Assembly (NCBI RefSeq): GCF_027942865.1
Contig: NC_134506.1
Span: 16,266,436-16,330,435 of the forward strand
Length of the DNA stretch: 64,000 bases
Source: Odontesthes bonariensis
Lineage: Eukaryota; Chordata; Actinopteri; Atheriniformes; Atherinopsidae
Direction of reading: 5' to 3'
The notes beneath the pieces are model-generated. The model ran no database searches, was not told the DNA's origin, and saw only the letters and a list, made by a program, of their open reading frames with translations. Both the position numbers and the translations under genes were made by a program. Position 1 is the first letter of the stretch. Every line of letters begins with the position of its first letter. Positions 48,401 through 53,754 of this stretch are shown here, in pieces.

Positions 48401-51400
48401 CATTAAACTCAATACAGAGAGAGAAAAAAAGTTGACTAATAAAACAGAAACATTCTCATTTTCCACGACTTTCAGTTCTCCAGAAGCTATTTTTCTTTTA
48501 ATGTCCTCCATAGCGCTTCCAGCCAATTGAGCTCGGCTGCACTGATCGCACGTGTTTAATGTAAAGTTGTTCGAATGTTCGATATGCGTGCGTGCGCACC
48601 GAGCATGCACAGACCACAGATGCACACAGATGCATGCTGCATGGCATGAGGCACGAATAGCCTACCAACATTTTCATTTATGCATATTCAATTATTTATG
48701 TTTATCACAAAAACTGACGTTTGCAATGAACTGAAACCAGCTGTCCTCTGGCTGTTTATAATTTTCACGATGTCTGCTTGCTTTCGAGCCCGACCCGAGT
48801 CCGACAAGACATTCTAATTTTTTGTCCGAGTCCGGCCCGGCACGTCGGGTTCCGACCGGGCCCGTCGGGCTTCGGTCGGGTTGCCATACTCTAAACCGTA
48901 TACAAGTTCTTTCAGGTTTCCAGCTAGATCACAAGACGCATCTAGAGACAATTTGTACGATTCTGGCTTAAATATTGACTGAGAAATAATCTTGTTGGGA
49001 AAAGACAAACTCGCCGATGGAACAACATTGCCCCCTAGTGGTCTGTAGTGTTGAACATTTAAATCCCCACAGACCCAGTCAACCGGACAAGATATATGCA
49101 ACAATTTAACTTTTAACGATGTCCCTTCAGTATCTATTTGGTATTTGTTTGGTATCCCCATTGTTAACACAGAAAATCAACATTGTGTGGTTCACTATTC
49201 ATATGTCACGACTTCATAGATACTCATCTGAATTTTGAGACTAATCGTCTGTATCATGTTGTGTTATTTGATGTCTTTATATTGCAAGTCTGTTATATCT
49301 TTAACCTGCATATCTTAACAAGATGTAGTGTTTTCAGAATCACCGAGACAAATGTTCTATGAGACAGAGTAAAGCCTGATTTATACTCGGAAACCAGGTC
49401 GTCTCCCAGATAGCAAAACTCTTTTGGCCCGTATCCGGCCCACATACGGCATGGAATGATGGCACTTGGGCGGTCCGCTCACGTTTGCCAGAAGTGGGCC
49501 ACAACCAAGCCATCACAATGCCAGATGTCAGCCAAAATCAGCCCAAATGAACCAGCACTCAACCGGATGTGGGCCACTGTACAAAACTCTTTTGGCCCGT
49601 ATCCGGCCCACACCTGACATGTTCATCCGGCCCACATACAGCATAGAATGATGGCACTTGGGCGGTCCGCTCACGTTTGCCAGAAGTGGGCCACAACCAA
49701 GCCATCACAATGCCAGATGTCAGCCAAAATCAGCCCAAATGAACCAGCACTCAACCGGATGTGGGCCACTGTACAAAACTCTTTTGGCCCGTATCCGGCC
49801 CACACCTGACATGTTCATCCGGCCCACATACAGCATAGAATGATGGCACTTGGGCGGTCCGCTCACGTTTGCCAGAAGTGGGCCACAACCAAGCCATCAC
49901 AATGCCAGATGTCAGCCAAAATAAACCAGCACTCAACCGGATGTGGGCCACTGTACACTTTAATTCTGGCCAGAACTGGTTTACACACTATAACCTTGAC
50001 TAACCTGCACACTTGGGGAGTCACAACCATAATAAAATGGTATGTCAAATATGAAAACACAGAATGGTCTCAATTTGTGGCTACATGCCATTATGGTAAC
50101 CCCAGATACCGTTTGAATGGTGGCATGCAGTGGGACTCATCTTGGGGTCCAAGATGAGGAAACTGAAGAAATGACCAAACACGAGAAGTGGGTGTGATTT
50201 TTATTTTATTTTAAAACATAATGGCAAAAAAAAAAAGGAAAAAGAGTTGGCGACCTACAAAAATCCAAATCCGTCTTCCGTCCCTTTAAGAAATACACAA
50301 AAGAACAAATTTAGTATATTCAGTATATGGTGGCAGTGAAGTGCAAAACACAGAACCTCATCAGGATAAACAAAAAAGGCTGAGTGAAATGATATAAAGT
50401 TATTATAATATTGTGTTGATGCCTTACAAAACTTCAAAACCTAGTCTGTTTTTAATTACAATTAATCTGAAGCTAAACCCAATATCTGCTTGCTCAACCT
50501 CATTCTGTTCAGACAATGAAAGTTGGGTAACAGGCAATGTGAACTGGAGTAAAGCGGCTTCAAACACTCAGACAAACTTCACATTTAACCTTAACATTTA
50601 AGTTACAGTAATAACTCATGTTTATGTTAAAGGTGATTTTTTTGCTTTTGATATTTTGGAAGATATTGAAATTAAACTCAGGAGCTGCATACACCCCGCA
50701 CACATGATGGCAGCTTCATCTTGATTTCTGCTGTTGACCAGCATCACATATTGCAAAATAGGTATCGTAGCCGACTTACGTGCGTGCTGTGAGGAACGCC
50801 TTCTCTCCTCCCACCATCCCGGTCTCCGGCTAGATGAAGCCACCTTTTTATGTAGGCCTCCACCTCCTGGTCAGTGGCAGTTAGTTGGTTGTTTCTGACC
50901 GTTCCTAAAAATTGAGAAAACAGTAAAGTTTTTGATAGATTACACACAATGGTGAGAAATGCATGGCATGCTATATCCTGCCCATAGCTGGGCAGCAATG
51001 ATGAATGTAGTTTGAAAACAGTTTAGCCATGCCCATGACCAGCCTATTACTAAAATTGGAGGAAAAGTGCCCTTCACCTGATGAACTGATTGATTAATCA
51101 ACAATCAATGCCATTATATTGCAACAGAATAGAATATTGTCTGCTACCACACTGATGCATAATCATCCACATATTGATAAAGCGATTATGATTAATTTCA
51201 GCACCCCTAGCAACTACTCAGAATCATGAAAGAAAAGGAAAACCCTAACCCAGTCATAAAACGCATCACAAGGAAATATAACACAATTAACACTTACCAG
51301 TAATGACATCTTTTATTTGGAGGCTGTGGAAAGCCGTTTTTCCATTTACGCCCCGCCAGTTGAGCTGCTTGGCCAGCAGTATCTCATGATTCTCCAGACC

Positions 51401-53754
51401 GCATCTTTAATGTGAACCCCACCGATGACACTCAAAGTAGTAATCTCAGGGGGAAAAAAAGAGAAAAAAAAGGCAGTATTAGTACCACAGTTTTAGAGAA
51501 AATGTTTAGACTAAATAATCAATTTCAGTAAGTGAAATCAGTGTACTGTGGTTTCTTTATTTTTCACCCGAGGTGTCCCAACTGAGCTTCATTTTTGCTG
51601 TGCAAGAGGAGTTTTGTTACCCACAGATGTACAAACCATACACCCCTTACTTTAGAACAGTCCTCAACATCTCTGTACAGTTACAGTTCAATCGGATTGT
51701 TTTTTGATAAGGTTTCGATATTGCTTAATCATAACCGAACAGAAAAAAAGTTCCCGTACACGTGCATCAATAACATAGCATGCTAAGCTAACACAACGAA
51801 AGTCCTCGGTCGCAAAAACAAAAGAAAGCAAACCCTCCAGTCCCAGCGGTCTGGGAACAACTTCAGACTCATACTAATGAACATAGAACAAGCAGTGTTT
51901 CTTTTTGAAAAATGGCATCAACCTCATTCGTCGTGGCTGTATTTTGGTCGCAGCATCAAGCTTACAGCACTATGGTCGTTTTGAAAAGTAATTACATTTC
52001 AACTATAGCCAATTTCAGCTAACCCTATCTGAAGAGGTACAATGCCACTTGTAGACACAGCAGGTTTGTATAGTTTAAGAGAAACAAAGCTAACACATCT
52101 CACACATAAAATTAAATAAGCTGAGCCGAACTTACCTTCAACTTTTCTGTGGATCCCAGTAGGCTGAATGCGGCCAGTTTCTTCTGCAAGGTAGCTGGGT
52201 CACGATGAAGTGCTGCCTCAGCCAATCAGAGTGGCGTTGACCGATTCAAATGTTAACGGTTGTGTTCCAAACGCCCCCGCAAATTTGGAACAAATCACAC
52301 CAAGGGGGCGTGGTAGTGAAAAAAAAACAACAGTCTAACTTCTCTTTAGGTAAAACTTGCAGTTTTTTTTGTGAAATAAGAGTGGGTTTGCCCAGCTCAC
52401 AGTAAACCCACTTTTACCCATAGTTTCAACAAAGGTGGGCAAGTTTATATGTGGGCCACTTTAGGCTCAAATCCGGATTACTCTTTTCTTATTTGCCATA
52501 TTTCGGCCAAAACTGGCCATGTTTCAACAAAGGTGGGCCAAGTGTGTTTCTTTATATGTGGGCCACTTCAGGCTCACATCCGGATTACTTGATGCTCACT
52601 TGCCGTATTTCGGCCAAAACTGGCCCAAATATGTTTCAACAAAGGTGGGCCAAGTATGTTTCTTCATTTGTGGGCCACTTTAGGCTCACACCCGGATTAG
52701 TCGTTGCTAACTTGCCATATATCAGCCAAAGCTGGGCCGTATCCGTTTTGTAATATTTGGCCCAAATGTAGCATTTACTACATGGGCCACTTTAGGCTCA
52801 CATCTGTTTTGTCCGGGCCAGAAGAATGCCTACAGTGCCGGATCGTTGCCTCAAGTGGCCCACATCCGCATGCTATCTGGGCTGCGTGTGTGTCGCAGTT
52901 AACGCAGACATGCCCCCCCCCCTACGCAGACACTACGCAGACACTCTGGTGCACCTCCTCAAAATTGTAACTCACCGCAGATAGTGCCGCAGACATCGCC
53001 GCAGGGAGGAGAGAAAGGAGGCCTCTGATTGGTCAACTCTACATCCGCTCTACACTATGCGTATTTCCGGTTTGCTAACCGGCTGACGCTAACCGTGACG
53101 ATTCTTTCCCTCTCTGCCAGCTCCAGTAGTAGCAATATTTCTTCTATTTTTAGATCGATCAGCTGCATCTCAACAGTGTTGCCAATTTAGCGACTTTGTC
53201 ACTAGATTTAGCGACTTTTGGCCATTTCTGGCGACAAAAAAAAAAATCTAGCGACTTCCGGGCTCAATCTGGCTGAATCTAGCGACAATTTAACTTGTTT
53301 TGTGAGTGACAAATCAGTTGCTCCGCGACACCATACAAGCCGAGACAGAAGCACTGCAGGACGGCGGCAAGCCGGCATACCGTCATTTCCTGTCAAAACG
53401 GCAGTTTCAAGCTAGCTACAACGAGGGTAGGTTCACTTCCTGTTTTCAAAACAAAAGCACATTTTTATTGTAATGGCTTTCCCTATGATAAAAGGCAACG
53501 GGTATTTTATTTTGTCAAAATAACCGGAAGTGCGTTGCTCACTGCGGCTAGCTTTAGTAGCACCGAATTTGTTGGAACAAAATTGTAAATAGCCGGTATT
53601 TTGGCAGGTTTTTAACACGTTGGGGATCTAAACGACTACTTTCTCGCCTGAAAAGTTTCAAATGTTGCTAAAGTTTACAGAGTTTAGAGCTGAAATCAGC
53701 CTCAGGCCGGCTGACTTCTAGCGACTTTTCAGAGAGCCAATAGCGACTTCTTGT

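Follow-up and report, generated by a model that had tools for sequence, protein, structure and literature searches.

A 64,000-nucleotide stretch of Odontesthes bonariensis contig NC_134506.1 (positions 16,266,436 to 16,330,435 of the forward strand; "the window" below, with positions counted from its first letter) carries an inverted-repeat element at 49405-52881. The element is bordered by 11-bp inverted ends, CCCAGATAGCA at 49405..49415 on the plus strand and its inverse at 52871..52881 on the minus strand, which lie on the 3' and 5' side of the enclosed gene, respectively, and by the dinucleotide CT at both 49403..49404 and 52882..52883. Inside these ends are two tandem arrays, one on the left at 49433..49957 (period 192, 2.8 copies, 96% match) and one on the right at 52447..52735 (period 112, with a unit of 107/112 bp, 2.7 copies, 85% match). 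Between the arrays and all on the minus strand lie a putative 5' leader exon (52136..52210) that ends at a GTAAGT donor kept in 4/4 aligned copies, a DUF4806 core exon (51298..51444), and the last DUF4806 exon that we recognize (50780..50904), again with a GTAAGT donor after it; an internal-deletion joint is found at 51664..51666. The evidence laid out below makes it probable that this element is a young, internally deleted and non-autonomous fish transposon of the CACTA type, more precisely of the animal "TRC" kind, in which DUF4806 may act like TnpA. Its status as a non-autonomous DNA transposon is ordinary; its interest is that DUF4806 is tied to an animal CACTA lineage.

Ends, duplications and terminal arrays

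Within the window alone the match between the two ends is weak evidence, with 20/100 shuffles giving at least two matches at no more than one mismatch. Genome counts are decisive, since CCCAGATAGCA has 723 exact occurrences in the 945-Mb genome (383 forward, 340 reverse) compared to 34 (16 and 18) for the reversed control. They confirm that the element is genuine and bear out both the inverted repeat and the boundaries given in a preliminary description of this locus, which had also named a likely 2-bp duplication. The latter holds as well: the CT/CT pair follows a rule seen in 16/19 independent insertions, where matching 2-bp duplications vary in sequence, while a 3-bp flank match was found in 0/19. 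Permuting the flanks over 20,000 runs gave a mean of 2.4 and a maximum of 9 matches, to be compared with 15/19 because L060 was scored as a mismatch there. The sample comprised 20 end pairs fetched beyond the window element and then the complete copies L060, L063, and L064; the duplication test was run without five copies of family C (see below), which have the outer flanks of L023, some in opposite orientation, and without L059, whose right end was not found. Ends starting with CCC and varied 2-bp duplications are as expected of animal CACTA elements (TRC). A CACTA/CAC core is absent from the terminal inverted repeats, which read CCCAG, and the element is therefore no plant-type CACTA element; the duplications of plant CACTA transposons are 3 bp long, here they are 2 bp. 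Among papers containing CCCAGATAGCA, none concerns transposons as judged from titles and the beginnings of abstracts. Ends of the same 11-bp type also border a 194-bp miniature element (L018:275-468) that has an AC/AC duplication and consists nearly entirely of inverted repeat.

The period of the left array agrees with the 192 bp reported before, but that of the right array had been put at 105 bp and measures 112. The same description had called the two minisatellites unrelated, which is not what we find: the motif GTGGGCCA, counted on either strand, occurs six times in the left array, six times in the right array, not at all in the interior, and once in the remaining window, and 1000 shuffles of each array yielded at most 3 copies on the left and 2 on the right. 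L010, a copy with shorter arrays, shows the same distribution on a smaller scale (2 left, 2 right, 0 interior), and copies of GTGGGCC on the right side of the window element span 52451 to about 52864. The two arrays thus differ yet surround one short motif, resembling the subterminal regions of CACTA elements, whose short repeats occur at either end and in both orientations. In family B, another family described below, CGGATCCG is present at both ends, and in family C a comparable end motif was not found.

Extended ends delimit the family of the window element (family A). The extended left end CCCAGATAGCAAAACTCTTTTGGCC is found at 90 genome places at up to three mismatches (62 of them exact), and the extended right end CCCAGATAGCATGCGGATGT at 90 places at up to two. 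Paired convergently and no more than 15 kb apart, they make up 49 end pairs, of which 37 measure 2.8-3.6 kb, and the last DUF4806 exon lies inside 42 of the 49 pairs, in one orientation in 42/42. The matches to this exon number 51, a lower bound because 150 of 284 candidates were scored and the 45%-identical C6:37139233 was left out; 42 of them lie between two family ends, and each of the other 9 has one such end no more than 9 kb away. DUF4806 exons are hence not private to the window copy: if nearness to an end is counted, 51/51 exon matches go with family ends. Since pairwise substitutions among four copies amount to only 1.1-3.0%, the family is young; it is also dispersed, and the window copy was recently mobile.

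DUF4806 exons and transposase in the longer copies

The two window exons (51444-51298 and 50904-50780, minus strand) match a rebuilt DUF4806 query at 81-100%, with the last exon of that query itself derived from family copies. They had been described as spliced DUF4806-like exons with good donor and acceptor sites, which fits the GTAAGT donors and the second acceptor ATTTTTAG but neither the poor first acceptor (CTGAG) nor the frameshift of the core exon. This frameshift and the splice donors are common to the window copy and three other aligned copies. The frameshift is not family-wide, given that 8 core-exon matches are stop-free, some of them in complete copies of 2.8-3.6 kb. Because of the internal deletion and the frameshift, the window copy cannot make a DUF4806 protein, and its exons alone give no Pfam DUF4806 match at E<=1.

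Longer relatives supply what is missing. By blastn coordinates, the extra DNA at the joint at 51664..51666 amounts to about 2.6 kb in L060 and about 4.2 kb in L068 and is made up of upstream DUF4806 exons and transposase. L060 (contig C24) has both ends, a CT/CT duplication and pieces that are 70-87% identical, and its exons, joined by eye, match PF16064 at 30.3 bits (cut-off 25, E=5.3e-7), so that the Pfam search suggested for the joined exons succeeds with L060 and fails with the window copy. A PF16064 profile search of the fish genome itself gave 0 matches and 0 in the controls too, probably since the domain splits across two exons. L068 (contig C16) contains an open reading frame of 661 amino acids, which DUF4806 exons of the same strand follow, beginning with the first coding exon at L068:5125-5334; before the open frame it matches the right part of the window element at 95%, and after the DUF4806 exons it matches the window element at 92-93%. 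Both ends and the transposase start are retained in L060, in L063, and in C28:11268795-11272542, with L060 keeping the beginning and lacking most of the 661-aa frame. Given these copies, the window form is one product among several internal deletions. At the junction in L060 (L068:3012 to 5191), the transposase start runs on in frame into the DUF4806 gene across a short GCTTC/GCCTC similarity, which could give a fusion protein.

The 661-aa protein of L068 shows D176, D252, CxxC at 271-274, HxxxH at 470-474, and E494. This is the pattern of CACTA/CMC transposases, in which a CxxC and an Hx3-4H motif lie between the second aspartate and the glutamate of the DDE triad (as given in the accessible part of PMC12730594), and L068 is the only locus with the complete set. 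Its own profile match is a weak one to DUF4218 (E=0.0016, below the cut-off), and relatives of the protein overlap Transposase_21 loci at C1:3838114-3839154 and C24:23350742-23351386. Nearness of Transposase_21 loci to family-A ends is not usable as support, none having been seen near the ends listed; NCBIfam and PDB sequence searches gained nothing, and among viral contigs 0/32 pattern matches were confirmed. On contig C2, a CCCAGATAGCA end at 29996279 and a 44%-identical transposase fragment (C2:29996568-29997263) are about 280 bp apart, a hint that there may be other subfamilies with identical ends. A further transposase, 41% identical, occupies an open frame of 694 amino acids at C18:7904700-7913700.

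Related families and competing explanations

Two further cases support the pairing of such transposons with DUF4806. Elements of family B have 11-bp ends of the window type, with the remaining DNA different, and carry a DUF4806 last exon (VITDSVRKNPVARASTEHDVCKHAIRWFNLAADR) that matches at E<=0.5 in 8/9 copies and outscores the best of 200 shuffles in 7/9, although four loci only were shuffled and the scores of L014 and L020, which are longer than the shuffled sequences, are flattered. Copies L019 and L011 are without a match (L011 was the tenth copy tested, with none at E<=1e-3), and L016 falls below the best shuffle; its copies being related, family B counts as one observation. Within its element, L016 also contains open frames of 429 and 219 amino acids (L016:2400-4502) without any Pfam match at E<=0.1, probably another nested element. 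The other case is L069: behind its second transposase, which is 43% identical, comes a DUF4806-like exon of the same strand, 33% identical and matching at E=1.2e-4 and 32.7 bits, compared to 27.3 for the best of 100 shuffles. Family C was considered as an additional independent case and dropped, its DUF4806 score being at chance. Its near-identical elements L023-L028 (C2:32.4-36.3 Mb) have identical outer flanks and are apparently a single insertion multiplied by segmental duplication; 5/6 of them have a short open frame with KWLRYAPDRAGG that looks DUF4806-like at a chance-level score.

Several further observations weigh against a CACTA-type transposon with its own DUF4806 gene. The last exon is absent from 7/49 family-A end pairs, five of them short (0.6-2.3 kb) and two longer (on C28 and C21), and the C28 pair lacks it though the transposase start is present. 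Both ends and the last exon are missing from L068; in L063 the two ends and the beginning of the transposase are present, with no DUF4806 match at E<=1e-3; and among the copies found none combines both ends with both genes. Regarding the transposase, two frames of L069 show the earlier motifs without the final glutamate, the L068 protein has no match to Transposase_21 (PF02992) at E<=1, and 10/12 Transposase_21 loci do not overlap transposase matches. The ends of families B and C could not be tied to a transposase, with no match at E<=1e-4 in seven copies and chance-level matches elsewhere, and the family-C DUF4806 score of 20.4 bits is within the shuffle range.

Some of these observations also fit one of the two alternatives that the preliminary description had raised, the capture of a host gene. 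In the form considered here, a CACTA element took up a host DUF4806 fragment and amplified it, with no role of DUF4806 in transposition. The composition of L063 would be natural under such a capture, as would the failure to find both genes intact between two ends and the truncated and frameshifted gene of the four aligned window-type copies, and host fragments are often captured by CACTA elements according to the part of PMC8195511 available to us. Against it, transposase and DUF4806 gene adjoin on one strand in L068, family B retains a different DUF4806 exon between identical ends, and a DUF4806-like exon also follows the 43%-identical transposase. Host-gene capture is disfavored because these last two each also have a DUF4806 exon, and we regard it as unlikely. 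The opposite alternative, that DUF4806 proteins belong to the transposon lineage, gains support from the exon in 42/49 copies, the Pfam match of L060, and the adjoining transposase of L068.

That a full copy might contain an added nuclease had likewise been suggested, and L059 on contig C17 seemed to offer one, with matches to THAP, HTH_Tnp_4, and a viral alkaline exonuclease (YqaJ stayed below the cut-off). On a first reading this made the window element an ISL2EU (PHIS) transposon, driven by the THAP/HTH transposase and exonuclease of L059. This reading was overturned by three loci: L060 continues colinearly through the site and thus represents an empty site, and the unit of L059 recurs with both boundaries in L067 and with one in L066, neither of which matches DUF4806. 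Since the boundaries coincide in L067 and L066 and the L060 site is uninterrupted, the THAP/exonuclease unit is a nested ISL2EU element, to which the exonuclease gene belongs; it extends from L059:6163 to L062:3266 (C17:9705062-9711765). ISL2EU elements have GG ends and AT duplications (accessible text of PMC4482050), whereas we find CCC ends and varied 2-bp duplications, so that we consider ISL2EU membership of the window element extremely improbable. The ISL2EU transposase frames of L059, L066, and L067 are without the DDE core, and L065 (C6) keeps a 353-aa DDE_Tnp_4 frame. We give just as little credence to a spread of the copies by segmental duplication or some other process with the ends as a shared accident: family C at C2:32-36 Mb does look duplicated, with its identical outer flanks, but family-A copies lie on many contigs, and those fetched differ in their flanks and mostly have matched 2-bp duplications.

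Proposed mechanism and comparison with known systems

For the animal CACTA-type transposon that we favor, the two-gene layout of transposase and DUF4806 is supported by L068, and the TnpA-like role is inferred. Once the missing segment is added, the full form would measure about 7.7 kb and, from the right end inward and on one strand, would comprise the leader exon, the 661-aa DDE transposase, and a multi-exon DUF4806 gene ending near the left array. The transposase would cut at the CCC..GGG ends, and the DUF4806 protein may bind the repeated motif that the two end arrays share (GTGGGCCA in this element) and so pair the ends as the counterpart of TnpA in plant CACTA elements. Deleted copies like the one in the window would then be mobilized in trans by proteins made elsewhere. 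A wider generalization is conceivable, to which we lend slightly less than even credence: DUF4806 could be a dedicated end-binding partner of the animal CACTA transposase, with each subfamily having a DUF4806 protein that recognizes the motif arrays of that subfamily, and the large and patchy DUF4806 sets of some animals could mostly be transposon genes, some perhaps domesticated.

A domain of unknown function would thereby gain a testable job, the binding of transposon end repeats, and transposon genes would offer a simple reason for the patchy DUF4806 expansions of some animals. Examples of unequal numbers include a domain table of the Hydra viridissima paper that reads 69, 54, 6, 0, 1, 0, and 0 for DUF4806 in the portion available to us, which came without column heads (PMC7642931), and the genome of an ambrosia beetle, where DUF4806 is named among the highly enriched domains (PMC13270666, consulted in part). 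Where gene catalogues assign DUF4806 genes to the host, they may be including genes of transposons. Our literature search on DUF4806, PF16064/IPR032071, and the BEN domain did not find a link between DUF4806 and transposons, with most subscription papers and Repbase outside this search. DUF4806 (PF16064, IPR032071) is described as a subtype of BEN-type DNA-binding domain in PMC11075544, where the sections available to us treat DUF4806 genes on zebrafish chromosome 4 without a link to transposons; here the domain lies within one.

Among known systems, the ISL2EU/PHIS group is represented by one unit nested in one copy, with ends, duplication, and proteins that differ from those of the window element. 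Plant CACTA/En-Spm transposons are similar in having a transposase (TnpD) with a second protein (TnpA) that binds subterminal repeats, many short subterminal motifs in both orientations, and mostly deleted, non-autonomous copies (PMC8195511, same partial source). They differ in their CACTA ends, compared to CCCAG here, and we liken TnpA to DUF4806 by proposed role and not by sequence. The closest likeness is to the animal TRC branch of CACTA/EnSpm, exemplified by SmTRC1 in the survey of DeMarco et al. 2006 (PMC1636069, the available parts of which underlie this comparison). TRC transposons share with the window element a CCC at the start of the ends (in Aedes these read CCCAGTCAAC, in Tribolium CCCTAGTAGCA), duplications of 2 bp, and a tandem-repeat region, and the SmTRC1 transcript has a large transposase frame and a second frame in tandem, with alternative splicing. 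That survey reports TRC-like proteins from zebrafish but characterizes ends in three invertebrates only, whereas we describe ends, arrays, and a deletion series for the fish branch, whose ends were uncharacterized in 2006. It also finds the non-transposase proteins not detectably conserved, while the second gene of the fish element is DUF4806.

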